A stretch of 36,492 nt of DNA from Nitrososphaerota archaeon (lineage in GTDB: Archaea > Thermoproteota > Nitrososphaeria > Nitrososphaerales > Gagatemarchaeaceae), in contig JAPCJP010000016.1 in assembly GCA_027886885.1 (NCBI GenBank), positions 1-36,492 of the forward strand, given 5' to 3'. The notes beneath the pieces were generated by a model. It did no database searches and was not told the origin of the DNA. It saw only the letters and a list, made by a program, of their open reading frames with translations. Position 1 is the stretch's first letter. Every line of letters starts with the position of its first letter. Positions 968-33,274 of this stretch are shown here, in pieces. The translations under genes and the position numbers were made by a program.

Positions 968-3900
968 TCACGATACGACAGCGAACGAAATCTCGCACCA
1001 GGGCGCGCTGGCGCCCAGTGAGAACTGCGACGTCGTTGCCGTGCCGCCCTGTGCCGACTCGTCAGCGAGCCCCGTTTGGGTCTGGGACAAGAGCGAGTAC
1101 CCAGGTCCCGCGCTCCAAGACTGGTAGGCAGATTCTTGAGCAGCAGCGATTACAAGAGAGTTGGACGGAGGCGTGTAAGACGTAACGGCCGGTGTTGCAG
1201 ATGTTCCCGAGCCGGTCGAGAATGCGCCAATGCTCGCGGCCCCCTTGATTTCGTGTATCAACACGCCAGGATAGTTGCCCTGCCCGACCACATACACGTC
1301 ATCTGTCCCACTGGCCTTGGCGAAGGTGTAGTACACATACAGGTCATAGGTGCTGGTCGGGACCGGCACGGAGGTGAGCAGGGTGTAGGTGTTGCCCTGG
1401 GAGTCTGCGATAGCGGGAGCGACATCGGAGACTTCCACGACTATCATGTCTCCCTGAGTAACGGGGCTTGTCAGCGCGCAGGTGAACGATGGATCCTGTT
1501 GCAGCGGCGGAACCGCAGCGTTTGAACAGGTTTGGACTATGGTCGGGGTGCTCGAACCTGAGCTCTCCGTGAGAACGACTCCAGCCTCCACGTCGTCAAC
1601 GACAGATGAGAACGGGAATGATGTCGACCCCGCACTGGATGCGATTTCATACTCTGTTCCAGCGATTCCCGAGGCCACATACTGATCGAACGTGAAGCCT
1701 GACCCTCCTCCCGTCTCGTCTCGAGCAGTGGCTATGAGAACGGAAGACGCAGGATAGGCAGAGGCTGAGGAGCACGAGGGTCCGCAGGTGAAGGTGCTCC
1801 CTATCGAGTTGACACCGGTGAACTCCCAGCCCTGGACTCTAAGAGCCACCGACGAGCTGGGTTCCGAGACGCGCAAGGTATCAGCCCCTGCGGAGGCGAT
1901 GATGCCCCAGTAGACGTCCGCCTGGCAGGACCCCGAGTTCGACGTGCACCCCGTCGCTTCTGTTGCCGAGACCGCAAGTTGGAACGTCGTGCCCAAGGAG
2001 TCGCTCACCTGGAGGTTGGTCAGGTCATCGCTGACGACGGTGACCACCAGCATGTCCCCGCTCATCACGGCTGATGGGAATGCGGCGGTCGTCTGGCTCC
2101 CGGAACAGGGCGAGGAACAGGTATTCGCAGTCTGCTGGACAAGAGCGGGCCCGCCGCTTGAGCTAGCCTGTATCGTGAACGCGTTCCCGGTCGCGGTGTT
2201 CCCGCTGGCGACATCCTCGATGAACATCGTGTAAGACCCAGCGATCAAGGAGGGACTGTTGGCGAGATTCACGGAACTGGTTACCTTGCCGCTCGAGTTG
2301 AAGCTCGTGACGCTCGGGTATAGCTGATATCTTATGCTGTTGGCCGAGTTGATAGCGTAGACCAAGTACTGGCCGTTCGGCGTGCCTCCGGAGCCCGTGA
2401 TGGTCGCGGTGGAGGTCAGGATCAACGTCGTGGGAGCGATGCTGACAGCAAGTGGAGAGCCAGAACCTGAACCCTCCGTGAGGACCACGCCGTCCTCCTC
2501 AAGGCTGGCTGCAGGGGAGAACGGGAAGGTGGTCGAACCCGCGGTCGATGCGAACATCAGCTCGCTCCCCGCTACGCCGGAAGCAGTGTAGACGTACCAC
2601 GTGAAGCCGGCTCCTGCTCCTGTGACGGTCGAGCCGGTGGCGAGAAGAATCGAAGAGGCAGGATACGCTGTGGAAGCGCAGGTCGGAAGGCATGAAGCAG
2701 TATTCTCAACCTCGTTGACCCCCTTGAATTCCCAGATCTGGAGTCGTATCGCCGCGTTCGAGCCGGGCTCCGTTACCGTGACCGTGTCGACGCCCGAGGC
2801 CTTCAGGATGCCCCAGTAGATGTCGGCCTGGCAGTAGGTCGATGGAGACCCACATACTGGGTTCTGACTCTGCGAAGTGTGTGAGCCGACCGCCAATTGA
2901 ATCATCGTCCCGAGGGTATCGGTGACCGTTAGGGTGGGCTGGTCGTCTTCGACGACCGTGATGACCAGCATGTCCCCGCTCTGGACCTGCGAGCTAAACG
3001 TCGCGCTGTCCTGCCCGCTCGAACAGACATACGAGCAGGTCGTTTGTGATTCCTGGACGAGAGTGGGTCCGCCGCTGGACGAAGGCTGGAAGTTAGCCGT
3101 AATCGTTCCGGCGCCGTTGACCGTCATCGTAGTGCTCGCGCACGTACTGCAAGCGATCGTGATCGACGCAGAGCTGGAACTCCAAGAGGAGAAAGTGTAG
3201 CCAGGCGCCGCGGTCGCGCTGATCTGGACTTGGGTACCGGCAGAGTAGGTCTGAGAACCGGTCGGCGCTGTAGACCCGCTGGACGCCAGCGGAGCGACCG
3301 CGAAAGTGACCGTGTATTGCGGTGACGTGATAGTGAAGGTGTTGCCATTAGCCGTCTTTCCGCTCGCTACGTCCTCGATGGATACCGTGTAACTTCCCGC
3401 CGTCAGGGTCGGGCTGTTCGCCAGATTGACGGTTGTGGCGACGGTCCCGGTGGCACCGAAGACGGTGACGGTCGGATAAAGCTGGTACTTCATCGCGTTG
3501 GCGGTGCTGATGGCATACACAGAGAACTGGCCATTCGGCGTTCCGCCTGACGCGGTTATCGTCGCGGTCGATGTGGTCGTGAGCGTCGTAGGTGTTATGC
3601 TCACGATGAGCGGGGTAGTGGCCAGGACGGTCAGAGAGAAGTGGGCGGTTCCTGTTTGCCCGTCAATTCCCCTGCCATCCACTGTGATTGGATAGGTGCC
3701 TGGTGCGGTCGTCCCGGTCGTTGTTATCGTGAGCACATCGCTCGTGCCACCAATCGAGTCCTTGACCGGATTTACCGTCCACGATGGTGGCTGGACACCG
3801 GGTGGCAGCCCTAGGACCTGCAGAGTGACCAGTTGGGAGGCGCCATAAACTGTGAACGTCTCGGAGCCTTGCGAACTCTGGGTTATTGATAGCGGCACAC

Positions 3901-5839
3901 CCTGAGAGAGCGTGACCGAAGGAATGAAATCGGCTGTAACGCTTCCTGAACCTGTGACCCTAACGGTGTATTGACCATTGTTCAGTGTCAGGATATTACC
4001 CCCCGTGACCTGCCATGTCGAAAATACGTAGCCGGGTTGCGCGGAGGCTGTAAGCGGAAAAGTTGCCCCCGAAGCGTAACACTGAGTTCCCGTCGGACTT
4101 GTGGTGCCACTCCCCAGGGGAGCGACGTTGAAGCTAATCTTGAATGGTAGAGCCGCGACAGTGACGGTGGCGTGTGCAATTGGCGTGCCCTGATAGTAGA
4201 CGTACACCGATGCTTGTCCTCCACCGGAGCACGAAGGAATGGCCACGCTCGTCGCGGGGGGTATCACTGCTGGTCCTGAAGACGCTGCGGTGCCATCGAA
4301 AGCCGTAGAGGGACCGCTGCACACGTTCCCCGAAGAGACGAAGCAGGACGTATACTGGACTCCCGGGGTATACCCCCTCCCCGATATCGTCACCGAAGAA
4401 CCTGCGGAAACGACTATGGGGCTTGCTGCCACTGTGGGAGAGATCTGGGTGAACAGGCTCCACCCAACCGGGGTGCCCGCGTATAGAACATCTGCACCTA
4501 TGTCGTAAATGTCTCCTATGGTGAAGGTTGTCGCGGCGATTGTTCCCGAGGCAGACGAGGTTACCTGTATCGGAAAGGCAGACGGGTCACAACCGTATTC
4601 GCCGTTTTGGACAGAAATCACGTACTGCTCGGAGGTGATGCAGACGGAGTATTTCGTTGAAACTTGGAAACCCGACCCTGTTACCTGTATGGTGGAGCCT
4701 ACGGTCCCAAAGGGTGAAGCGATTTTCACGGAGGGACTAGTGACTTGAAACGGCTGCGAAGCGACTAGAGTCCCTGAACCGGCATAGAGGGGCCCCTCAT
4801 ACCCATTCATGACGACCGCGTACCAAGTCACCGAGCTCGAGGACGGGTAACTGTTCACAGCGAGGGTAGTCCCTGCAGGGATTGCTCCAAGGGTTGAGGT
4901 CGCGCTAGAGGGGACAGGGGTGAACGTGGAGAAAGAGCCGCTGCAGGTCTTCGAAGAAGTGCTCAAACAATACTCGTAGGTCTGCCCTACCTGGTAATTC
5001 ATTCCCTGCAACGTTGTAGTGGTAGGAATGGGACCATGGTTCGGATTGAGAGAAAAAGTTGGTGGAGGCGGCGGAGGAGGGGCAGCAGACACGCTCACCC
5101 CGGTGACCGTGATGTAGTTTGGTGAATTGTAAAAATCAACCGCAGCGTTCGCGGCGGTCCCTTCGTCATAACCCGCTTTCGCAACGACCAGGAATCCTCC
5201 CCCGAAGTAATACGTACCAGCCTGAGGCGCAGTGAAGAGCGAAGTGAACATACAGATTGAATTAGGACAGCCAGGTTGATTGGCTGAACTAAACGTACCC
5301 CCACCACCAGAATTAAATTCCTCGACAACCCCCTGGGGGTCAGTCGAACAACAGCCCCCGGGTCCCGAGACTTTAAAGACGTAAGAAAGGAGTGCGTCTG
5401 AAACGAGTGCGTCCGGACCCATCGAGCTTTTTATCACACCCAGGTATTTTGCTGAAATCTGCAGTTGTAATTGCTCTCCTTGGGTCGCCGCGAAGGATGC
5501 TCCATCTCCCGCCCCCGCATCGTCGAAGAAAACGTAGCCGAATGCGGTAACGCTGCCGCTGCAATCGCCTCCGACCCCGCACTCCTTCGGGAAGGCCTGT
5601 GCCTGTAGTCCTATCACCCCTGAATACATCCCGGGAGTTGCGGCGGCCGCACTTGCGTCGGCGCAAGCGTACCCAATCACGCTGGCGCATGAGCCTACGC
5701 TTGTGTAGATGTCTGCGTGATTGAATGGTGGCACGATTACGGAGCCTTGGGCCATCGCTCCCGGCGAGCCTGAGAGAAGTAACACAAGAAGAAGGCAACC
5801 CCCAACAACGATCGGACCATCCCGGAGACTGCGCCCCAT
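968..5839 (-). CDS. Giant secreted repeat protein (1623 aa), surface or adhesin-like
   Basis: The protein begins with a signal peptide (residues 1-31, core VVGGCLLLVLLLSG, ending AMA-QG). An N-terminal region of about 220 residues leads to a Pro run near 253-260. Residues about 262-565 hold several IPT/TIG-like beta-sandwich modules with paired Cys. Two InlB B-repeat-like units (about 565-637 and 840-917) end in the typical T-A-D/N-F motif after GYxFSxW. Between and after them come two copies of a roughly 95-residue module (about 743-836 and 1128-1218) and three copies of a roughly 200-residue module (about 918-1125, 1225-1431, 1435-1623) that shares the G-D-M-hydrophobic-V-x-V strand, the Q-A-D-hydrophobic-Y-W-G motif and conserved Cys pairs. 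There is no C-terminal membrane anchor, so it may be released or held by binding. Ligand and function are unknown. A near-leaderless promoter lies at 5863-5888. The ATG at 5839 fits it. Confidence 0.85.
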   Translation of the reverse strand: MGRSLRDGPIVVGGCLLLVLLLSGSPGAMAQGSVIVPPFNHADIYTSVGSCASVIGYACADASAAAATPGMYSGVIGLQAQAFPKECGVGGDCSGSVTAFGYVFFDDAGAGDGASFAATQGEQLQLQISAKYLGVIKSSMGPDALVSDALLSYVFKVSGPGGCCSTDPQGVVEEFNSGGGGTFSSANQPGCPNSICMFTSLFTAPQAGTYYFGGGFLVVAKAGYDEGTAANAAVDFYNSPNYITVTGVSVSAAPPPPPPPTFSLNPNHGPIPTTTTLQGMNYQVGQTYEYCLSTSSKTCSGSFSTFTPVPSSATSTLGAIPAGTTLAVNSYPSSSSVTWYAVVMNGYEGPLYAGSGTLVASQPFQVTSPSVKIASPFGTVGSTIQVTGSGFQVSTKYSVCITSEQYVISVQNGEYGCDPSAFPIQVTSSASGTIAATTFTIGDIYDIGADVLYAGTPVGWSLFTQISPTVAASPIVVSAGSSVTISGRGYTPGVQYTSCFVSSGNVCSGPSTAFDGTAASSGPAVIPPATSVAIPSCSGGGQASVYVYYQGTPIAHATVTVAALPFKISFNVAPLGSGTTSPTGTQCYASGATFPLTASAQPGYVFSTWQVTGGNILTLNNGQYTVRVTGSGSVTADFIPSVTLSQGVPLSITQSSQGSETFTVYGASQLVTLQVLGLPPGVQPPSWTVNPVKDSIGGTSDVLTITTTGTTAPGTYPITVDGRGIDGQTGTAHFSLTVLATTPLIVSITPTTLTTTSTATITASGGTPNGQFSVYAISTANAMKYQLYPTVTVFGATGTVATTVNLANSPTLTAGSYTVSIEDVASGKTANGNTFTITSPQYTVTFAVAPLASSGSTAPTGSQTYSAGTQVQISATAAPGYTFSSWSSSSASITIACSTCASTTMTVNGAGTITANFQPSSSGGPTLVQESQTTCSYVCSSGQDSATFSSQVQSGDMLVITVVEDDQPTLTVTDTLGTMIQLAVGSHTSQSQNPVCGSPSTYCQADIYWGILKASGVDTVTVTEPGSNAAIRLQIWEFKGVNEVENTASCLPTCASTAYPASSILLATGSTVTGAGAGFTWYVYTASGVAGSELMFASTAGSTTFPFSPAASLEEDGVVLTEGSGSGSPLAVSIAPTTLILTSTATITGSGGTPNGQYLVYAINSANSIRYQLYPSVTSFNSSGKVTSSVNLANSPSLIAGSYTMFIEDVASGNTATGNAFTIQASSSGGPALVQQTANTCSSPCSGSQTTAAFPSAVMSGDMLVVTVVSDDLTNLQVSDSLGTTFQLAVSATEATGCTSNSGSCQADVYWGIIASAGADTLRVSEPSSSVALRVQGWEFTGVNSIGSTFTCGPSCSSASAYPASSVLIATARDETGGGSGFTFDQYVASGIAGTEYEIASSAGSTSFPFSSVVDDVEAGVVLTESSGSSTPTIVQTCSNAAVPPLQQDPSFTCALTSPVTQGDMIVVEVSDVAPAIADSQGNTYTLLTSVPVPTSTYDLYVYYTFAKASGTDDVYVVGQGNYPGVLIHEIKGAASIGAFSTGSGTSATPAVTSYTPPSNSLVIAAAQESAYQSWSAGPGYSLLSQTQTGLADESAQGGTATTSQFSLGASAPWCEISFAVVS

Positions 5840-6029: not shown

Positions 6030-7184
6030 ATGTCACCTCATCCCGTCACGAAGACAGTCGGAAGCTTCGAGAGGAAGGCTCCTCGAATGAGTGCGATAGT
6101 CCGCGCCATGGAGGAGGTCGGGCCGGACGTGGCGGAGATCGCCAGGAGGACCAAGGAGCCCGCCGAGAGCGTGAGATACATCCTGAAGACGAAGATCTTT
6201 GGAAAGGGGCTCGGCGTCTACGCCATCTACAACGCCTACGCCTTGGGGTTGACGAAGCGGGCCCTCATCGCGGACCTGGCCGCCCCTTACTCCGAACGGA
6301 CCTGGGACCTCTTCAACGCCATGGAAGAGAAATGGTTTCTCACCTACAGCTTCCGAATGATACCAGAGGGTACGTATGCGATGATCTTCGACGTGCCGGA
6401 CGGACGGGAGGAAGATTTCACAGAGCTAATCCAACGCATGCAAGAGGTCGGGTTCATCAAGAAAGTGCACGACGACCTTGGCTTCGAGTGGAGGAGGAAC
6501 AACGAGATGCGAGCCGAGCTCTTCGACTTCAAGCGAAGCGAGTGGGACTTCGACTGGACCAAACTCCCGGTCCGGCCCGCTCCTCCCATCCCGGTCGCCA
6601 AGAAGATAGAGGAGATCCACCTCGCCGATCTGGGGCTGATGGCGGAGCTGTGGGTCGACTCGGCGAGGTCTCTCGCGGAACTGGCAAAGCCCAACGAGAT
6701 GAGCGTAAGGTCGGCGGTCAGGCACATGAGACACGTCAAGGAAAAAGGCTTCTCGACCGGGTATCGAGTCAACTGGATGAAGTCCCAGAAGCTCAATACC
6801 TCGGGTAGATACCTCACCTCGCCACACAAGTACCTCGTCACGGGCGTCTTCGTGCGCGGCATAACCCAGCAGGAGCAAAGAAAGGTCAGGGACGCCCTGA
6901 ACCGGCTGCCCTTCCTCTGGGTCGAAGCGGGGGGGAACAACTACTTCGCCGAGCTGATAGTCCCGCTCGCGCTGACCAACGAGACTATCCAGTTCATCCA
7001 CAGGGAATTCACGGGGCTCTCGCACAAGACCAGATTCTATATCCTGGACTGGGGGAGCGGGATGAGCTCCTCGACCCCGCGCCATCTCTTTGACCCCAAG
7101 CGCCAGCAGTGGGTCTACGAGCCCGAGTCACAGGTCAGGGACCTGGAGGCGGCCATGGCTAAGGTCGCCACTGTCCCCAAGTGA
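6030..7184 (+). CDS. Two-domain helix-turn-helix regulator (paralog of 26196-27374)
   Basis: This 384-residue protein has an N-terminal HTH-like block (about residues 18-60: GPDVAEIARR, then ESVRY, then KTKIFGKGLG), a middle domain that resembles an AsnC/Lrp-type sensor fold, the signature WDFDW near 172, a second HTH-like block (about 200-250: LMAELWVDSARSLAELA) and another sensor-like domain. It therefore looks like two Lrp-like halves in tandem. The gene downstream of tfb in this window is clearly a paralog with the same order of motifs. It probably binds DNA, but the targets are unknown. The ATG at 6030 lies 35 nt past a TATA-like AAATAAATC (5991-5999). The next Met (6087) would remove 19 residues before the first HTH and is less likely. 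It stands alone, divergent from the large secreted protein, so a role in controlling that gene is possible but unproven. Confidence 0.75.
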   Translation: MSPHPVTKTVGSFERKAPRMSAIVRAMEEVGPDVAEIARRTKEPAESVRYILKTKIFGKGLGVYAIYNAYALGLTKRALIADLAAPYSERTWDLFNAMEEKWFLTYSFRMIPEGTYAMIFDVPDGREEDFTELIQRMQEVGFIKKVHDDLGFEWRRNNEMRAELFDFKRSEWDFDWTKLPVRPAPPIPVAKKIEEIHLADLGLMAELWVDSARSLAELAKPNEMSVRSAVRHMRHVKEKGFSTGYRVNWMKSQKLNTSGRYLTSPHKYLVTGVFVRGITQQEQRKVRDALNRLPFLWVEAGGNNYFAELIVPLALTNETIQFIHREFTGLSHKTRFYILDWGSGMSSSTPRHLFDPKRQQWVYEPESQVRDLEAAMAKVATVPK

Positions 7185-25159: not shown

Positions 25160-26098
25160 GTGTCCTACGACAAAGATTTCTCGAGACTGATGAAGCTGCA
25201 AAAGGCGCTTGACAAGTGCCCCCGTTGCGGGAAGGGTCCCATGATCATGGACAACAACGGAGGGGAACTGGTCTGCAGCAGTTGCGGTTTTGTGGTGAAG
25301 GACAAGATAGTCGAGACGGGCCCGGAGTGGAGGTCGTTCTCCAAGGAAGAGAAGGACGACCGCTCGAGGGGCGGGATGCCGACCTCCATAGCCATGCACG
25401 ACATGGGGCTGGCCACGGTCATCGGTGGGGTCAACAAGGACGCTTCGGGCAAGTCTCTATCGGCCTCCATGAAGGCCACGGTCGAGAGGCTAAGGACCTG
25501 GGACAGCCGGTCGCAGGTGCACGAACCCATGGACAGAAACCTAAGGCAAGCTTTCAGCGAGCTGGACAGGCTGTCCGACAAGCTTGCAGTCTCCGACGCA
25601 GTGGTAGAGAAGGCCGCTTACATCTACCGAAAGGCGCTGGAGAGGGGGCTCGTGAGGGGAAGGTCCATCTCCGCCATAATCGCCGCTTCCCTCTATGCAG
25701 CATGCCGGGACCGGGAGACCCCCAGGACCCTCAAGGACCTTGCCTTGGTCTCGAACGTCAAGAAGAAAGACATCGCAAGGTGCTACAGGTTGCTGCTGAA
25801 GGAGATGGACATCAAGATGCCAGTGGTAGACCCGACCAAGTGCGTCTCTAGGATCGCGTCGAGGGCGGGCCTCTCGGAGAAGACCAAGAGGAGGGCACTG
25901 GAGATACTGAAGCGGGCAGAGGAGGCGAGGATCTCCGCAGGAAAGGACCCCATGGGCCTGGCGGCAGCGGCGCTATACGTGTCTTGCACGCTGGAGGGCG
26001 AGGACAAGACCCAGAGGGACGTGGCAGAGGCGGCCGGGGTCACCGAAGTCACCATTAGGAACCGCTACAAGGGACTCCGTTCAGCGCTGAGCATCTGA
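25160..26098 (+). CDS. tfb: Transcription initiation factor B
   Basis: It recruits RNA polymerase to TBP-bound promoters. The N-terminal zinc ribbon has Cys20, Cys23, Cys39 and Cys42 (C-P-R-C then C-S-S-C). The B-reader/linker has G-P-E-W-R-S-F, and two cyclin repeats follow (A-A-S-L-Y-A-A-C-R in the first, A-A-A-L-Y-V-S-C in the second, with the C-terminal HTH T-Q-R-D-V-A-E-A-A-G-V-T-E-V-T). At 312 residues it is a full-length archaeal TFB. It is divergent from the membrane protein and followed 98 nt later by a two-domain HTH regulator. It is one of several TFBs that a lineage like this may carry. Confidence 0.96.
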   Translation: MSYDKDFSRLMKLQKALDKCPRCGKGPMIMDNNGGELVCSSCGFVVKDKIVETGPEWRSFSKEEKDDRSRGGMPTSIAMHDMGLATVIGGVNKDASGKSLSASMKATVERLRTWDSRSQVHEPMDRNLRQAFSELDRLSDKLAVSDAVVEKAAYIYRKALERGLVRGRSISAIIAASLYAACRDRETPRTLKDLALVSNVKKKDIARCYRLLLKEMDIKMPVVDPTKCVSRIASRAGLSEKTKRRALEILKRAEEARISAGKDPMGLAAAALYVSCTLEGEDKTQRDVAEAAGVTEVTIRNRYKGLRSALSI

Positions 26099-26195: not shown

Positions 26196-27374
26196 ATGGA
26201 ACAGGCAGCCAGAATGTCGTTAGAGAAGAGCACCCCGGAAGGAGGGGTCGACGAGGCGAGTTCAAACGTGAAGACGGGGCAACTCGCCAGCATGATAATC
26301 GAGCTCGGACCCAACATCTCCGAGATTGCAAGGAGGCTGGGCCAGTTCAAGGAGAGCGTGCGATACCGGTACAAGGAGAAGCTGCTGAGCAAGGGCTTTG
26401 CGGTCCGCGTCGCCGTGGACAACGAGAAGCTCGGCCTAAGGAGGGTCGTATTGCTGGTCGATTTCTCGGACGCCTACCAGGAGGTCGCCCAGAAGATACT
26501 GAGGGCAATGAGCGAAGAGGGCTACCTCGCCAGCTACGAGAAGACCCTGCCGGACGGCAAGTTCCTCGTGCATGCCTCGGTCCCGGAGGAGTGCGTGGAG
26601 GATTACCGCGAGTTCTTTGGGGACCTCCGCCAAAAGGGATACTTCAGGTCAGTAGAGTTCTACACGTTCCACTGGTTCCGGAACCCGCCCATGAAGACGG
26701 AGATGTACGACTTTGACGAGGGGAGGTGGGACTTCGACTGGTCCACGGAACAAAAGTACGACAAGTCCGGTGCCCTCCACGCACCCTCGACCAAGGAGAA
26801 GTTCGACATGGTGGACCTCCTCATCCTCAAGGAGCTCCAGAAGGACGCGAACAAGTCCCTCGCCGAGATGGCCGCGGGCCTGAAGATCAACTACAAGACC
26901 CTCACCTGGCACTTCCGCAACCACATTGAGGCCAGGCACCTCATCAGGGGCTACGTCATCAACTGGATCGGGTCGAAATACGAGTACAAGCTGGACAAGG
27001 CCAGCAACAAGAAGCACACCTATCTCTACGTTGCTCTGCTCTTCCCGAACCTCGACAGGGCCAAGCGCATGGAGATCATGGCTAAGCTCAACATACTTCC
27101 TTTCATCTGGTGCGAGTGCGTCGGGGACTCTTACGAAGCGGAGCTGGTCTTCCCCATTTCCACGCTCACCGAGGGGTTGCAGTACCTGTCTGAGGTCATC
27201 GCCGAGAGCCAGACGCAAGCGAGATACTTCATAATCGACCAGACGAACTCTCTCACGTTCTCCCTGATACCCGAGCTCTATGACGATTCGAGGCAACGAT
27301 GGAAGTTCGACAAGGAAAAGATGGCTAGCAGGATAGAGGCGTTGCTCCTCGAGGTCAAGGAGAAGCCCCGTTAA
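26196..27374 (+). CDS. Two-domain helix-turn-helix regulator (paralog of 6030-7184)
   Basis: A 392-residue protein with the same plan as the gene at 6030: an N-terminal HTH-like block (about residues 28-70: G-P-N-I-S-E-I-A-R-R, then K-E-S-V-R-Y), an AsnC/Lrp-like sensor region, W-D-F-D-W near 184, a second HTH-like block (about 205-255: L-L-I-L-K-E-L-Q-K-D-A-N-K-S-L-A-E-M), and a final sensor-like region ending in a charged helix. The shared landmarks mark one family. The TATA-like ACATATAAGG (26167-26176) is 25 nt before the ATG, so the transcript is leaderless. The regulator may act with the neighbouring tfb in setting promoter choice (inference from position only). Confidence 0.75.
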   Translation: MEQAARMSLEKSTPEGGVDEASSNVKTGQLASMIIELGPNISEIARRLGQFKESVRYRYKEKLLSKGFAVRVAVDNEKLGLRRVVLLVDFSDAYQEVAQKILRAMSEEGYLASYEKTLPDGKFLVHASVPEECVEDYREFFGDLRQKGYFRSVEFYTFHWFRNPPMKTEMYDFDEGRWDFDWSTEQKYDKSGALHAPSTKEKFDMVDLLILKELQKDANKSLAEMAAGLKINYKTLTWHFRNHIEARHLIRGYVINWIGSKYEYKLDKASNKKHTYLYVALLFPNLDRAKRMEIMAKLNILPFIWCECVGDSYEAELVFPISTLTEGLQYLSEVIAESQTQARYFIIDQTNSLTFSLIPELYDDSRQRWKFDKEKMASRIEALLLEVKEKPR

Positions 27375-27425: not shown

Positions 27426-27545
27426 CTAGGGTCCGACGCCGCCGATCGGGTCTAGGATACCGGGGTGGAGCCCGATGCCCGCGATCAACATTGTCGCTGC
27501 GGTGGCCGCAGCCATTCCAAATCTGACTTTCTGGTCTATGGTCAT
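27426..27545 (-). CDS. 39-residue small peptide, likely membrane-associated
   Basis: A complete short frame begins M-T-I-D-Q-K-V-R-F-G-M and continues with an alanine-rich hydrophobic segment (AAATAATMLIAGIG), ending H-P-G-I-L-D-P-I-G-G-V-G-P. The start is an ATG whose TATA-like TTTTTATCG box (27568-27577) is centred 28 nt upstream, the same spacing as other genes here, and the composition is protein-like. The N-terminal charged part followed by one hydrophobic helix and a Gly/Pro tail suggests a single-span membrane peptide or a peptide that associates with a membrane complex. No family is recognised. It is below the length limit of routine gene callers. Confidence 0.6.
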   Translation of the reverse strand: MTIDQKVRFGMAAATAATMLIAGIGLHPGILDPIGGVGP

Positions 27546-27567: not shown

Positions 27568-27577
27568 CGATAAAAAT
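27568..27577 (-). promoter_or_regulatory. TATA-like box for the 39-residue peptide gene
   Basis: ATTTTTATCG on the minus strand, centred about 28 nt before the ATG at 27545. It is the main non-coding evidence that the small gene is expressed. Confidence 0.5.
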
Positions 27578-27624: not shown

Positions 27625-28149
27625 TTACTCGCTGACGCGCGCTTTCTTCTTGGCCTGGAGTTCGTCGCTCGTGAAGAGCGTCTGGAAGTGCTTGGAGAGT
27701 ATGTCGATGTAGATGTCCGTCTCCTTTTCATCCATGTACTGGAACATGTACCCTCCCCTGTATGGCGAGGGCTCGCCTTCCCGCGTGATGAACTCGATGT
27801 GGATGAGAGGGTCACCGCGGTTGACGGTGATCGGCCTCCGTTCGTTGTTCAGGTTTACCAGTTCCAGCGCCAGCCGGCCCACAAAGCCGCTGTGGACCTT
27901 GACGGAGTTGAGGAAGGAGAGCCCCATCCGGCCGAACTTGCTCTTGGCCGTCAGGTGGGCGACGTAGTTTGGGGGCGTGAAGATGACCTCCTTGGATATC
28001 ATATTCCTGTGCTCCAGATAGTTGAGGGTCCGGTCCTCTCTGACCGTCAGCACGTAACCGTCTCCGTCGAAGCCTTCGTCGTGGGTGGGGTAGATGACCT
28101 TGTATTTTTCAACCAGGTCCATTAGGACGGACTCGCCGATGACGGTCAT
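27625..28149 (-). CDS. dcd: dCTP deaminase / dUTPase family protein
   Basis: A 174-residue trimer-fold protein with K-S-K-F-G-R-M-G-L, V-H-S-G-F-V-G-R-L-A-L-E-L-V-N (catalytic Glu in the LELVN region, cf. HPGWEGxxxLEixN of the family), and R-G-D-P-L-I-H-I-E-F. It most likely deaminates dCTP to dUTP or hydrolyses dUTP to keep uracil out of DNA and supply dUMP for thymidylate. Typical family residues are partly changed (H-S-G rather than H-P-G), so exact activity is not settled. The ATG at 28149 is 27 nt from a TATA-like TTATTAAGCC (28171-28180), so it is leaderless. It is the second nucleotide-related gene type in the window, along with the TMK-like pair. Confidence 0.8.
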   Translation of the reverse strand: MTVIGESVLMDLVEKYKVIYPTHDEGFDGDGYVLTVREDRTLNYLEHRNMISKEVIFTPPNYVAHLTAKSKFGRMGLSFLNSVKVHSGFVGRLALELVNLNNERRPITVNRGDPLIHIEFITREGEPSPYRGGYMFQYMDEKETDIYIDILSKHFQTLFTSDELQAKKKARVSE

Positions 28150-28214: not shown

Positions 28215-29345
28215 TCAGTTGGCGGCGTACTTTACGTACTCGTTCTGGCACGCAGGATAGCGGGCGATCCACCACTCGTGCTTCCGGGGCACCATGACCC
28301 AGGAGTCGAAGGTGATCGAGTGCTTGGTCTCGGATTCGTGGGAGCAGATGGAATAGGGGTAGTTGACGTGGTCCCGGAGTATGCGCTCGCAGGCTTCCAG
28401 GTCGATGTTCGGCGAACTCTGGGCCAAGAGCTTGTCCATCCTGTTCTGGTGCACCACGCTCGCCATGTTCGCCTCTTTCTTGTCGGGGCTGTAGGCCACC
28501 GTCTCCGCCATCTGTCCGTCCTTGTACTTTAGCCTGAGGTAGTGGTTGGCGTGGCCCATGGTCCTGTCGAAATAGGAGACGTCGATGTCGTCGGGCGTGG
28601 CCTCGATGTCGTAGACCTCGCCGTTCTCGTCGGCGACGACGAAGTTGAAGCACCCGGCCCTCTTGGCCCTGACCACGGCGGCGAGCGCGTCCCCGATGTT
28701 CTTCGACCTCAAGACCTCGGAGATTATGACGTAGGTAGGGACGCCGACGTCCAGGTTCCGCCGCGGCACGCTGTTCCAGGAGAGGCACAGGCCGTTGGAG
28801 TTCATCCCGGCCCAAGTAACGAAACCCGGTGCATTGTAGGCGAGAAGATTGGGGCCGTCGGTCCTCGTCTCGTGAAGTAGAAAGGGGGCCTCACCATTCC
28901 AATAGATCTCGGTGTGGAAGTCCCAGTTCTGCCCGATGAAGGTCTCCCCGCCGACAGTGGCAGGACCCGTGGCGCCGAACGAGGTGCAGTGGTCACGGTA
29001 GACGGCGCACTTGTCCTTTGGGGTGTGCATCTCCTCGTGCATTTGGATCAGCGTGACCTCTTCGATGGAAGCCCCCGAGCCCTCGGCGATCCCTTCCATT
29101 ATCTGGAAGGTTTCCGGAGAGTACTCCTGGACGAATGGGATGTGCTTCGCCGCGAATTGCAGCAGGGTCTCCTTGGAGACGTTCTCCTTGGCAAAATAGT
29201 CATAGAACTCTTGCTTGAGCATGCGGTGGACTCCGGCCTTCAGTTGCGTCCCCTGTTGGTGTCCTCGCTCCCGGGGCGACCCAGAAACCTCCAGCAGCTT
29301 CAGGGGCCTGACCGTTGACTCTACAACCTGGAGCGTCAATGCCAA
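28215..29345 (-). CDS. C45-type Ntn acyltransferase/hydrolase (acyl-CoA:6-APA acyltransferase-like)
   Basis: The family (peptidase C45) cleaves itself before a Cys that becomes the N-terminal nucleophile. Here this is Cys120 in R-D-H-C-T-S-F-G-A, like the fungal isopenicillin N acyltransferase. Other family features are G-Q-N-W-D-F-H after it, M-N-S-N-G-L-C-L-S-W-N, and A-N-H-Y-L near the C-terminus. In prokaryotes such enzymes act on amide or acyl substrates and are usually not penicillin enzymes. Substrate is unknown. The TTG start follows a TATA-like TTTTTAATCG (29361-29370) by 21 nt. It is divergent from the dimethylglycine-dehydrogenase-like gene, so the two share a 151-nt regulatory gap. 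It has no signal peptide. Confidence 0.85.
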   Translation of the reverse strand: MALTLQVVESTVRPLKLLEVSGSPRERGHQQGTQLKAGVHRMLKQEFYDYFAKENVSKETLLQFAAKHIPFVQEYSPETFQIMEGIAEGSGASIEEVTLIQMHEEMHTPKDKCAVYRDHCTSFGATGPATVGGETFIGQNWDFHTEIYWNGEAPFLLHETRTDGPNLLAYNAPGFVTWAGMNSNGLCLSWNSVPRRNLDVGVPTYVIISEVLRSKNIGDALAAVVRAKRAGCFNFVVADENGEVYDIEATPDDIDVSYFDRTMGHANHYLRLKYKDGQMAETVAYSPDKKEANMASVVHQNRMDKLLAQSSPNIDLEACERILRDHVNYPYSICSHESETKHSITFDSWVMVPRKHEWWIARYPACQNEYVKYAAN

Positions 29346-29496
29346 AGTGAGGAGGCTCGACGATTAAAAAGGCTTGGAGCACTTTCGAGCACCGCTCTTT
29401 CCATCGGCTGGCTGGGCGCGGATTCTCCTCTCGTCCGGGCCATCGGAGCCGGCCAAGATTTTAAGCGGAGGGGGCTCATCGCTTGCCGTCAAGCCG
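29346..29496. promoter_or_regulatory. Shared divergent promoter gap, C45 enzyme and dehydrogenase
   Basis: Left TATA-like TTTTTAATCG (29361-29370, minus) and right GATTTTAAG (29457-29465, plus) face outward. The frame of the plus-strand gene stays open upstream to 29374, but the right box lies within it. Confidence 0.45.
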
Positions 29497-31923
29497 TTGG
29501 CAGACCGCGCGAAAGTGGTGATAATCGGCGGCGGAGTGGCCGGCTGCAGCACTGCCTACCACCTCTCCAAGATGGGTGAGACCGACGTCCTCGTCCTGGA
29601 ACAGGGGCCCCTGTTCACCCAGGGGAATTCCACGGGGCACGCGCCAGGCATAATCTTCCAGACGAACTTCTCGAGAACGATGACCAAGTTCGCCCAGCGC
29701 TCGGTGGAGCTCTACTCCAGCCTGAAGCTGGACGACAAACCCTGTTATCACGCGGTGGGAGGCATGGAGGTCGCGTATACCGATGAGCGATATGAGGACC
29801 TGAAGAGGAAACTGGGGGCCGCAATGTCCTGGGGCGTGGAGGCCAGGCTCATCACCCCGGGGGAGGCGAAGGAGATGATCCCGCTCATGGACACGGAAAT
29901 AATCAAGGGGGCTTACTTCGTGAACCGGGACGGCGTGGCGAAGGCTCCGCGCGCCTGCGAGGCGATGGCCCGCGAAGCCCAGACCAAGGGAGTCAGGTTC
30001 CGGGGGGAGACGGAGGTGACAGGCATCGTGGTTAGTCAGGGCAGGGTCCGGGGGGTGGAGACCAAGGACGGGCGCATCGATGCCGAGCAGGTGCTCATCA
30101 CAGGCGGCATATGGGGACCTCGGGTCGCCAGGATGGCGGGTATCAAGCTCCCCCTCTCGCCGATGGAGCACCTATACGCCAGGACGGACCCGTTGCCCGA
30201 ACTCCACGGGACCAAGGCCGAGGTCACACAACCAGTGGTCCGCCATCAAGACAGGGCGATGTACTTCCGCCAGGACGGAGAGACCTACGGGGTGGGTTCA
30301 TACTTGCACGAACCCCTGCTCGTGAGCGCGGACGACCTCGGCAAGCGCGGGGAGGGCGCTGCCGCACCTTCGATCCACAGGTTCACCCCCGAGCATTTCC
30401 GCAGGGGTTGGGATGCGGCCGTGGAGCTGTTCCCACCGTTGAAGGGCGCCGGTCTGAGTTACGCGATAAACGGGATGTTCTCCTTCACCGTTGACGGGAT
30501 GCCCATCATGGGTCCGACCCGGGAGGTCGAAGGGCTATGGGTGGCAGAAGGGGTGTGGATCACCCATTCAGGCGGGGTGGGTAAGGCGATGGCCGAGTGG
30601 ATGGTGGACGGCGCGCCGAGCCTCGACCTTCGGGAGTGCGACGTCAACAGGTTCCATGGGTATGCCTACAGCCCCTCCTACATCAGCACGAGGGCCGCGC
30701 AACAGTACAGGGAGGTGTATGACATCATCCACCCGGCTCAGCAATTGAAGTCACCGAGGCAGGTCCGGCTCACCCCCTTCTATGGTCGGCATCAGGAGTT
30801 GGGGGCGGTCTTCTTCGAGAACGTTGGGTGGGAGCGACCTCAGTGGTTTGAGGCAAATCGACCACTCCTCGATGGGAAGGGCTGGCCGGTCCGGTCCGGA
30901 TGGGAGGCGAGGTTCTGGTCTCCGGTGCAGGGCGCCGAGCATCACGCCACGAGGAACGGCGTCGCGATTTACGACATGACTCCCTTCACAAAGATTGCGG
31001 TACAAGGTCCCAGCGCGCTGACATATCTGGAGCGCATCTGCGCCAACAGGGTCGACCAACCGCTGGGGAGGGTCGTCTACACCCAGATGCTGAACGGCAA
31101 AGGAGGGATAGTCTGCGACCTCACCGTCTCGAGGTTGGGTTTGGACTCATTCCTCGTAGTGACCGGAGGCTCCACGGGGATGCACGACCTGGCTTGGATG
31201 CAGGCACATCTTCCTGGGGACGGCTCAGTCAGCCTCACTGACGTGTCTGCCGGAATGTGCTGCCTTGGATTGTGGGGGCCGAGGGCCCAAGACCTCCTGG
31301 GCATGGTGAGCAAGGATGACCTCTCTGCAGGCTCGTTCCGACCATTCACCGCAAAGAGGATCATCGTCGGCAACGTCCCGGTACTCGCCCTGCGAGTGTC
31401 CTACGTCGGGGAGAACGGCTGGGAGCTCTACGCTGATACGGGCTACGGGTTGATGCTATGGGACACCCTTCGGGAGGCGGGGCGCGGGTTCGGCATGGTG
31501 GCGGCGGGGGCGGCGGCCTTCGACTCCCTAAGGCTCGAAAAGGGGTACCGGCTCTGGGGGAACGACATCCATACGGAGTACAACCCGCTCGAGGCGGGGC
31601 TCGAGTTCGCCGTCAAGATGGACAAGGGTGATTTCATCGGAAGGGACGCACTACAAAAGGCCAAGGAGGAGGGCCTCACCAGGAAGCTCTCGAGGATGTA
31701 CTTCGATGAGCCGGGGCGAGTGGTCCTGGGGAAGGAACCCATAATCCACGAAGGCGGCGTCGTGGGTTACGTCACGAGCTCGAACTATGGCTACACCCTC
31801 GGGACCGGGATCGCCCTGGGTTACCTTCCCCTGGAGCTCTCCAAGGAGGGAACAGGGGTCGAGGTCTACTACTTCGGTAGGCGATACGCGGCGACGGTCG
31901 TCAGCGACGGCCGGATGAGCTAG
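29497..31923 (+). CDS. Dimethylglycine/sarcosine dehydrogenase-like flavoprotein with GcvT domain
   Basis: The 808-residue protein has an N-terminal FAD domain with G-G-G-V-A-G (11-16), then S-T-G-H-A-P-G (His48). This His sits where mitochondrial dimethylglycine dehydrogenase carries its covalently bound FAD. A linker (about 375-430) leads to a GcvT-like folate-binding domain from near 430 (A-T-R-N-G-V-A-I-Y-D-M-T-P-F and C-A-N-R-V, ending in the aminomethyltransferase C-terminal barrel). It would oxidise an N-methyl glycine and pass the one-carbon unit to a folate or pterin. In archaea the acceptor may be tetrahydromethanopterin. The start TTG at 29497 is 36 nt past a TATA-like GATTTTAAG. 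The longer frame from 29374 adds unlike residues. The 3' end overlaps the convergent CPBP gene by 4 nt. Confidence 0.87.
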   Translation: MADRAKVVIIGGGVAGCSTAYHLSKMGETDVLVLEQGPLFTQGNSTGHAPGIIFQTNFSRTMTKFAQRSVELYSSLKLDDKPCYHAVGGMEVAYTDERYEDLKRKLGAAMSWGVEARLITPGEAKEMIPLMDTEIIKGAYFVNRDGVAKAPRACEAMAREAQTKGVRFRGETEVTGIVVSQGRVRGVETKDGRIDAEQVLITGGIWGPRVARMAGIKLPLSPMEHLYARTDPLPELHGTKAEVTQPVVRHQDRAMYFRQDGETYGVGSYLHEPLLVSADDLGKRGEGAAAPSIHRFTPEHFRRGWDAAVELFPPLKGAGLSYAINGMFSFTVDGMPIMGPTREVEGLWVAEGVWITHSGGVGKAMAEWMVDGAPSLDLRECDVNRFHGYAYSPSYISTRAAQQYREVYDIIHPAQQLKSPRQVRLTPFYGRHQELGAVFFENVGWERPQWFEANRPLLDGKGWPVRSGWEARFWSPVQGAEHHATRNGVAIYDMTPFTKIAVQGPSALTYLERICANRVDQPLGRVVYTQMLNGKGGIVCDLTVSRLGLDSFLVVTGGSTGMHDLAWMQAHLPGDGSVSLTDVSAGMCCLGLWGPRAQDLLGMVSKDDLSAGSFRPFTAKRIIVGNVPVLALRVSYVGENGWELYADTGYGLMLWDTLREAGRGFGMVAAGAAAFDSLRLEKGYRLWGNDIHTEYNPLEAGLEFAVKMDKGDFIGRDALQKAKEEGLTRKLSRMYFDEPGRVVLGKEPIIHEGGVVGYVTSSNYGYTLGTGIALGYLPLELSKEGTGVEVYYFGRRYAATVVSDGRMS

Positions 31924-33029
31924 TCCCCCAGGCGGTCCGAGACTAGCCGTTCGGCGGTCTGCACCGGTAGGTCACCAGAGGGTGTTGCTACCTGTTGGAC
32001 CTCCCGACCGGACTTTCTCGTGAGCATCCACCGCCAGAGGCGGTAGGCAATGTACAGCAGACCGGGGACTCCGACGGCGAATAGGATGTCGTAAGAGGGC
32101 AGAAGGCTGTAGGAGCTGTCGTTGGTCCAGGGAACCCCGTACACTGCCTGACCGTAGAAGGCGAAGGCGTTGAGCGCATAGTCGGTCGCCCAGTGATAGA
32201 TTATGCTGGCGTGGAGGCCATAGCGGACGTAAAGATAGCCGAGGGCAACTCCGTCCAGCGCTGCTTCGCTGACCTTGCCGATGCTCCAACCCGCGCCCGA
32301 CAGGTAGTGGGCGAGTCCGAAGACAACGGCGCTGAGCGCGACCAGCAACACGACGAGAAGCTTGTGGGAGTCCTCCAACTGCGGGCGCGCGCCGGAGGCG
32401 TCGACATCCCATGCGGCAGAAGGCCTCCAGAGCGTCTTCACGGACCTGCGGAGCGAGTCCCGGGTGAGCAAGAGGACGAGAAATAGAGGGACCCCTATGA
32501 GGAAGAACCTGTAGCCTATCTCTTCGATGAAGGGCGCGAGCACGAAGCTGATCAGGAGCTCCAGTGGGTCCCCGCTGATGCCTCCCGTGGCCACGCCGGC
32601 GGAGGTCTGGACATAGTCGAGCAGGATTGTAAGTAGGAGCGACGCTCCCAGGATTATTACCGTGGCAGTTAGGGGGTTCTGGAAGAGAGGCGACACTCCT
32701 TCTTGGGGGGTGGCCTTCAGGGCCTTCACGATGCCTCCGCCCTGCCAAGCAGCCAGGGCGATGAAGAGCACGATCACCGCCGTGAGGACCGCGAAGGTGG
32801 CTCCGTAGGAGGCATCGAACGGAAGCCTCACAGTGAGCAGGGCTATGTAGAACGGGACGGAGTACTGAGTCTGCGCGCTGTAGGGTGGGTTGTGAGTGGA
32901 AAGGGTCGTGAAGAAGACAGTGTAGAAGCCCACCGGGATGGAGAGGACGAACATGACTATCGCCGAGACCACAGCGAGCGAGTAAAGAGTCGCCACGGGG
33001 TCGGAAATGCGAGAGCCCAACGGACTCAA
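31920..33029 (-). CDS. CPBP (CAAX-protease-like) membrane protease
   Basis: The protein has eight or so hydrophobic segments and the family's metal site: E-E-I-G-Y-R (Glu169, Glu170, Arg174), F-G-L-A-H-Y (His241), and a further His279 in I-Y-H-W-A-T-D. These enzymes are membrane endopeptidases of the Rce1/CAAX and bacteriocin-processing superfamily. In prokaryotes they act on unprenylated substrates. A 25-residue N-terminal tail and a charged C-terminus of about 40 residues lie outside. The open frame continues to 33116, but the start is most likely TTG at 33029, which overlaps the zinc-ribbon stop in ATTGA. That predicts translational coupling, with 369 residues. Confidence 0.83.
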   Translation of the reverse strand: MSPLGSRISDPVATLYSLAVVSAIVMFVLSIPVGFYTVFFTTLSTHNPPYSAQTQYSVPFYIALLTVRLPFDASYGATFAVLTAVIVLFIALAAWQGGGIVKALKATPQEGVSPLFQNPLTATVIILGASLLLTILLDYVQTSAGVATGGISGDPLELLISFVLAPFIEEIGYRFFLIGVPLFLVLLLTRDSLRRSVKTLWRPSAAWDVDASGARPQLEDSHKLLVVLLVALSAVVFGLAHYLSGAGWSIGKVSEAALDGVALGYLYVRYGLHASIIYHWATDYALNAFAFYGQAVYGVPWTNDSSYSLLPSYDILFAVGVPGLLYIAYRLWRWMLTRKSGREVQQVATPSGDLPVQTAERLVSDRLGD

Positions 33030-33274
33030 TCCTTTGTTGTCTCGGGGTCGGGTTCCAGATAGACGTAGCCCGTGTAGCCGCACTTGGGGCAGAAGTAGCT
33101 CTGGGGGACAAGCCACCCGCCCAGCTCTCCCACCTTCTTCAGGGGCGAGAGGCAGACGGCGCAGAGCCGCGCCCTGTTCGCAAAGGCCTTGCGCCTCACG
33201 AACCTGGGGGTTCCTATCTGCAGGTCGACCTTGTTGGTCTGAGCGTCCTCCTTCGGCTGGCCCGGCTCTTGCAT
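33026..33274 (-). CDS. Small zinc-ribbon protein
   Basis: At 82 residues it has one C-x2-C pair in the middle (C-A-V-C) and a second in the C-terminal part (C-P-K-C-G-Y-T-G-Y), the pattern of a four-Cys zinc ribbon, after a basic stretch (R-F-V-R-R-K-A-F-A-N-R-A-R-L). It could be a nucleic-acid or protein-binding adapter. I do not recognise a named family. The TATA-like GGTGTTTAAG (33301-33310) is centred 31 nt before the ATG. The stop overlaps the start of the membrane protease gene by 4 nt, which suggests they work together or are at least made together. Confidence 0.75.
   Translation of the reverse strand: MQEPGQPKEDAQTNKVDLQIGTPRFVRRKAFANRARLCAVCLSPLKKVGELGGWLVPQSYFCPKCGYTGYVYLEPDPETTKD

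Follow-up and report, generated by a model that had tools for sequence, protein, structure and literature searches.

The peptide gene and its surroundings

The window, i.e. the whole stretch of 36,492 nucleotides of DNA analyzed here, contains a small peptide gene that runs tail to tail with the gene of a putative transcription regulator. The features of this locus are collected in Table 1. Translation of the small gene gives MTIDQKVRFGMAAATAATMLIAGIGLHPGILDPIGGVGP, followed by a TAG stop codon. In the AF2 model, the peptide forms one helix at residues 3 to 23, and the tail is unstructured. The TATA-like box TTTTTATC has its center about 27 nt upstream of the ATG, the right spacing for a leaderless archaeal promoter and mRNA.

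Table 1. Genes and elements of the peptide locus, with the evidence on which each assignment rests
Feature	Position	Strand	Evidence
TFB (TFIIB); conserved flank, outside the proposed mechanism	25160..26098	+	NCBIfam PRK00423, 390 bits
Partner regulator, 392 aa, tandem (winged HTH + RAM-like) x2	26196..27374	+	pairing, Pfam, AF2, fold search
Small peptide gene, 39 aa + stop	27426..27545	-	sequence, translation, homologue matches
Codons 31-39, C-terminal tail LDPIGGVGP; candidate ligand/mature peptide	27429..27455	-	remodelled forms
Codons 3-23, predicted single helix/hydrophobic segment with conserved N-terminal D-x-K-x-R	27477..27539	-	AF2, column conservation
TATA-like box TTTTTATC, -31 to -24 from ATG	27569..27576	-	sequence, family-wide spacing
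dCTP deaminase-like; flank, outside the proposed mechanism	27625..28149	-	Pfam DCD
Rce1-like (CPBP/CAAX) membrane protease; candidate maturation protease	31920..33116	-	Pfam PF02517

The original prediction of a 39-residue, ATG-started frame, comprising one hydrophobic segment followed by a Gly/Pro tail, is confirmed by the sequence. Its leaderless-type promoter is upheld as well: in 42 of 75 non-redundant promoters of the peptide family, a TATA-like hexamer starts between -36 and -25, compared to 2 to 6 in other 12-nt windows. The ORF is confirmed as a real, conserved gene, an example of the class below 45 codons that annotation can miss. A chance ORF is ruled out by the conservation across genomes and the pN/pS ratio described below, and an RNA feature by the absence of both an Rfam match and a tRNA from the window. 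A mobile or viral origin was rejected, since viral contigs contained no relative and PHROGs matched neither the peptide nor the regulator. A role in defense was rejected too (PADLOC matches none of peptide, regulator and protease). A known family was likewise rejected, as NCBIfam matches none of four peptides. Pfam gave no match for the focal peptide, nor for two of the three relatives scanned; a DUF630 match of the third was below threshold (E 0.21) and was dismissed.

Distribution and conservation of the peptide family

The proposed homology check in related archaeal genomes was positive: a search with the single peptide gave matches in 40 of 61 genomes (E ≤ 1). The nearest matches (G005, 66% identity; G006, 63%) are both free of stops. 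In a sample of 300 genomes of the order, a family profile built from 39 rows gave matches in 55 (E ≤ 0.01), namely 42 of the 46 genomes of the host's own family, the Gagatemarchaeaceae (Group I.1c), and 13 genomes from other families. The genome of the window itself contains three full-length copies in the profile search (in the window, at C115:40842 and at C115:137269). Across 33 loci, the named MAGs with close relatives are Nitrososphaerota/Thaumarchaeota or archaea of no finer label, including AcS1-13 and SubAcS15-57. According to PMC10640624, both of these are Gagatemarchaeaceae and AcS1-13 is a Ca. Gagatemarchaeum.

Taking 89 of the 90 order-level match rows (one in G027:C47, which runs to the contig end, was left out) together with the loci of the single-peptide search resulted in 85 distinct genes. 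Their products are 38 to 46 aa long, with the exception of one short, weak match. The pooled pN/pS of 0.215, calculated from 139 pairs (≥80% identity, non-independent, window copy excluded), demonstrates purifying selection on the codons of the family. The column conservation in 78 distinct sequences is bimodal, with M1, D4, K6, R8 and G10 close to the N-terminus and G25, P30, L31, G35, G36 and G38 at the C-terminal end. The peptide combines a conserved N-terminus with a single hydrophobic helix and ends in a [DE]xIGGxG tail.

A putative tandem Lrp-fold regulator adjoins the peptide gene

A neighborhood comparison that was blind to the regulator revealed one gene cluster common to 79 of the 85 peptide loci. 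In a recount with a profile, 81 of the 85 copies adjoin the regulator, 74 of them convergently and 7 divergently; all seven divergent pairs belong to family f9. The four copies without a regulator comprise two at contig edges (103 and 12 bp past the peptide) and two weak matches (22-23 bits). The gap of the 74 convergent pairs ranges from -26 to 349 bp, with a median of about 13 bp and 11 overlaps. The pair in the window is convergent too, with 51 bp between the two stops. The original prediction found the peptide but missed its convergent partner.

With regulator presence called at E ≤ 1e-10, the regulator was found in all 55 peptide-bearing genomes of the order sample; 9 of the 300 genomes contain the regulator alone and 236 neither. 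The same 4 of the 46 own-family genomes lack both genes. The distances of regulators and peptides are correlated (Mantel r 0.79, n = 72, and 0.66, n = 46), a correlation that linkage alone also gives.

The AF2 model of the regulator (pLDDT 89.7, pTM 0.87) consists of two units of a winged HTH and a RAM-like domain. Pfam HTH_24 (PF13412) matches the second half with 24.0 bits (cut-off 21.9), PF13404 remains below its cut-off (22.8 bits, cut-off 27), and the NCBIfam Lrp models score far below theirs. No TPR was found in the Pfam scan of the window regulator, which gives HTH_24/AsnC-type matches only, and its model is a tandem Lrp fold. The best solved fold is NirDL (4ch7; Z 16.9, 292 residues aligned, rmsd 4.6, 10% identity). 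Lrp/AsnC and stand-alone RAM chains match one half or the other at Z 6.5-8.8, and a PDB sequence search also returns Lrp regulators. The RAM ligand domain is assigned from the fold. The first HTH unit carries a conserved basic recognition helix, which suggests that the protein binds DNA. This helix and the presence of two HTH units make a role as regulator likelier than one as enzyme.

Tandem-Lrp genes also occur in other arrangements. Two or three of them lie close together at three loci (L118, L029 and L041), one being convergent with a peptide. The window contains a second paralogue (6030-7184, plus strand), which shares 29% identity with the partner regulator and is divergently oriented to an ORF of 1623 aa with InlB-type repeats at 968-5839. 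A peptide for this second regulator was searched for downstream, and no recognizable gene was found.

Remodelling of the peptide retains the tail

Regulators that seemed to be without a peptide were examined, and several adjoin a remodelled form, the shortest being L197 with 20 aa and the longest L221 with about 80 aa. L196 (G001) and L197 (G002) are loci of the window type, with 92-93% identity for the TFB and 82% for the dCTP deaminase. Their small genes keep the promoter spacing and the DPIGGxGP tail and lack the helix and the N-terminal block. L197, a 20-aa DPIGGAGPS gene, encodes MGRPSRDPIGGAGPSLCPRA, and the product of L196 has three (D/E)PIGGFGPSY units. The peptides of L221 and L224 begin differently, with an N-terminus that includes a hydrophobic stretch, and continue with three and two GDPGGPG[AE]PN units, respectively. 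When the repeat units were compared (nine codons in L196, ten in L221 and L224), the synonymous and non-synonymous differences between unit pairs amounted to 12/0 in L196, 17/0 in L221 and 7/0 in L224. Since only synonymous differences separate the repeats, selection preserves the tail unit at the amino-acid level. It is the Gly/Pro tail that is kept when the gene is remodelled. No Sec signal is evident in L196 and L197; export would therefore be non-obligatory or proceed by another route.

These forms qualify two earlier expectations. The frame was expected to be unbroken in close relatives, which is the case in the two nearest matches, yet the gene at the same locus in two species of the same genus lacks the hydrophobic segment. 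The description as a new small membrane peptide fits the anatomy and the lack of any Pfam, NCBIfam, PHROGs or PADLOC match. Given that the tail rather than the membrane segment survives remodelling and that a regulator lies convergent, this description is probably incomplete as to function.

The remodelled forms also bear on an alternative in which the peptide is a membrane tether or anti-regulator: its cytoplasmic N-terminus (DEKIR) would hold the regulator at the membrane or inhibit it, while the tail senses the outside. The N-terminal residues D4, K6, R8 and G10 are conserved as much as the tail, beyond the need of a mere export signal, and the single predicted helix and the near-universal pairing with the regulator also favor such a tether. 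It is nevertheless unlikely, as L196 and L197 have lost helix and N-terminal block while keeping the tail, the locus and the promoter spacing, and as tail units are repeated.

A promoter element of the peptide genes

Most of the 75 non-redundant promoters share the element ATGnAAAnGC between about -39 and -49, as an expectation-maximization search showed (log-likelihood 195, compared to 42-47 for shuffles). The motif was trained on one half of the promoters and scored on the other at a threshold of 5. Hits were obtained in 18 of 37 and 20 of 38 held-out promoters, versus 3 and 5 of 166 other genes and 1 and 4 of 79 regulator genes, a test that overstates the power of the motif because related sequences occur in both halves and the start codons of the controls are uncertain. 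The peptide promoter in the window matches weakly (best 2.3, at -67). The motif may be the operator of the regulator or the site of another factor. Separately, the promoters of subfamily B (L053, L054, L056, L057, L059, L092, L097 and L118) show a TTGATGAAAAGGnGGAACTAG-like block at the expected TATA position.

Flanking genes and a candidate protease

At loci of the window type, the module changes fast between slower flanks. Syntenic identity is 92-94% for TFB (5/6 loci), 66-83% for DUF7521 (5/6) and 79-82% for the dCTP deaminase (4/6), compared to 39-68% for the regulator and 39-55% for the protease (both 6/6). An acyltransferase-like gene (28215-29345, PF03417) and a DAO/GcvT-type gene (29374-31923) lie between the dCTP deaminase and the Rce1-like protease; they stand there only in the window, not in the relatives examined. 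In the wider family, VIT1-like genes (c1) stand beside 18 and SpoIIM-like genes (c5) beside 12 peptide loci, mostly as syntenic copies.

Such membrane-protein neighbors might point to the peptide as an effector, i.e. a small membrane protein that modulates, for example, a membrane enzyme or transporter and is controlled by the regulator as its dedicated transcription factor. The pairing and the promoter element common to the peptide genes would agree with this. As the neighbors vary by module type, no single target complex is apparent, and tail-only and repeated-tail forms exist. An effector is therefore improbable, somewhat more so than a tether.

The Rce1-like gene exceeds the Pfam cut-off (41.5 bits, cut-off 22.4), and its translation contains EEIGYR; EExxR is the motif of Rce1-like (PF02517) membrane proteases. 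It is one of two Rce1-like matches found in the genome. A gene cluster that looks Rce1-like (c14; both of the two representatives scanned are above the Pfam cut-off) occurs at 7 of the 85 loci in three families (f1, f6 and f14), and most modules have no adjoining protease. Fifteen genomes, with one to four Rce1-like genes each, were searched, and in 8 of them such a gene lies no more than about 5 kb from a module. As five of these 8 have it at a common syntenic locus, they represent about three independent cases. At the window-type locus, the gene is present in 6 of 6 relatives, one copy being cut by the contig start. A joint loss of protease and helix was considered and not seen, as L315 keeps the protease gene.

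The poorest candidate is a bacteriocin- or RiPP-like system, in which the repeated tails would be core peptides and the Lrp-fold protein an autoregulator or maturation enzyme: repeated cores, the linked Rce1-like protease and the Lrp-fold enzyme as best fold match speak for it, but no recurrent immunity, transporter or other maturation gene stands by the modules in the clusters examined, of which representatives of some were scanned.

Proposed mechanism

The preferred reading, to which a probability of roughly one half is given, is a two-gene module in which a transcription regulator responds to the short peptide encoded next to it, the tail of the peptide being the ligand. It builds on what the sequences establish: the family, its tail-to-tail pairing and co-occurrence with the regulator, the purifying selection, the tail-keeping remodelling and the linked Rce1-like gene. 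The peptide would be made from a leaderless mRNA. Its helix would insert into the membrane, leaving the tail outside or otherwise accessible, and a membrane protease, possibly the Rce1-like candidate, would release the tail. Single Lrp proteins bind amino acids at their RAM domains; the tail, still intracellular or after re-uptake, would bind between the two RAM-like domains of the tandem regulator. Re-uptake is possible in view of the 8 SBP_bac_5 (PF00496) matches in the genome, a family that presumably includes oligopeptide-binding proteins of importers. The tail-bound regulator would then alter the transcription of genes, probably of the peptide gene among others, because a TCATGnAAAGGC-like element stands next to the TATA box in most promoters of the family (weakly in the window copy). 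By analogy, the pair would act as a peptide-responsive switch like the bacterial propeptide-receptor pairs.

The likeliest purpose of this switch would be communication between cells (quorum sensing). More specifically, the modules might constitute an archaeal peptide-pheromone system, in which a D[PE]xIGGxG-type peptide, secreted or set free from the membrane, is sensed by a tandem-Lrp receptor inside the cell. Each cell would have several paralogous channels, and the system would have arisen independently of the bacterial TPR systems. This proposal is tentative and held with less confidence than the pairing of ligand and regulator, for two reasons that weaken a pure secreted-pheromone model: the helix-less forms indicate that membrane insertion is sometimes unneeded, and the conserved N-terminus calls for a second role of that part. 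Against the ligand role itself stand the conservation of the N-terminus, the many regulators without a recognizable peptide, the weakness of the promoter motif in the window and its rarity before regulator genes, the modules that have no adjoining protease, and NirDL, an enzyme, as the closest fold of the regulator.

Comparison with known systems

No description of the pair was found in the titles and abstracts of the literature searched. The nearest functional parallel is the RRNPP group of Firmicutes (Rap-Phr, Rgg-SHP, PrgX and AimR-AimP). As delimited in PMC10075063, these are adjacent genes at -60 to 400 bp, for a propeptide of 10-100 aa and a receptor of 250-500 aa with a DNA-binding domain; the receptor is a TPR protein, the propeptide is secreted (Sec or PptAB), and repeat duplications occur inside propeptides. 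The archaeal pair resembles them in peptide length (38-46 aa, remodelled 20 to about 80 aa), in the adjoining 392-aa regulator (gaps within that range in 74 of 85, including the window), in the repeats within the propeptide and in the short C-terminal mature peptide proposed. It differs in the tandem Lrp/AsnC-fold receptor instead of TPR, the archaeal host, the tail-to-tail order with near-overlapping stops and the putative nature of export. Size and adjacency thus agree with RRNPP and the receptor does not, so the pair may work alike without being a member.

As in Lrp/AsnC (feast/famine) proteins, each half of the regulator combines a winged HTH with a RAM-like domain. The two halves are, however, joined in one chain of about 390 aa, and a genome encodes several such proteins, which usually have a peptide gene of their own. 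If the proposal is true, the Lrp fold would be extended from amino-acid sensing to peptide sensing. The siroheme decarboxylase NirDL has the same tandem Lrp-like architecture; the regulator differs from it in pairing with a small peptide gene and in the low sequence identity. No haem-biosynthesis genes, the context of NirDL/AhbAB, were found among the module neighbor clusters examined.

Archaeal cell-cell communication is little known. As described in PMC12240190, Haloferax volcanii signals its cell density by a secreted signal, as is proposed here, and the account there includes no peptide gene or tandem-Lrp partner. The signal of H. volcanii is reported in PMC13286277 to be a secreted small molecule. 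Its CsmR was considered as a counterpart and ruled out, being a 13 kDa protein. According to PMC12240190, a role in a quorum-sensing pathway had previously been demonstrated for a single archaeal gene, and the signals listed there are AHL-type, diketopiperazine or unknown. The present pair has the anatomy of a peptide and its receptor, in several copies per genome, in archaea of acid soils, and offers concrete peptides to synthesize and a receptor to test.

Relatives beyond the order

Homologues of the regulator occur in 40 of 300 genomes of a class sample and 57 of 300 of a phylum sample (E ≤ 1e-20). At the order level, the leftover regulators had a candidate small ORF in 7 of 39 cases versus 3 of 41 control genes, and the scan is uninformative there. 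A convergent hydrophobic small ORF lies beside 6 of 20 phylum-level regulators versus none of 15 controls, although one of them (L309) looks spurious. Three phylum-level loci of family f32 (L301, L302 and L304) encode convergent hydrophobic peptides of 46-47 aa with a 4-nt overlap with the regulator stop; these are similar to each other and have no IGG tail.

At the class level, such an ORF was found beside 10 of the 20 regulators examined, compared to 2 of 21 control genes, and several are clearly alike, e.g. MTIEQKVRIGSILAIAGASLILAHLGLVGPLDIIGGAGPA of L254. In the class-level family f19 (L271, L272 and L273), distant regulators are preceded on the same strand by ORFs of about 64-68 aa; each has a single hydrophobic segment and an acidic tail that ends in PWHPA, PVYPA or PWVPG. 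This same-strand layout is possibly a third arrangement of the pair.
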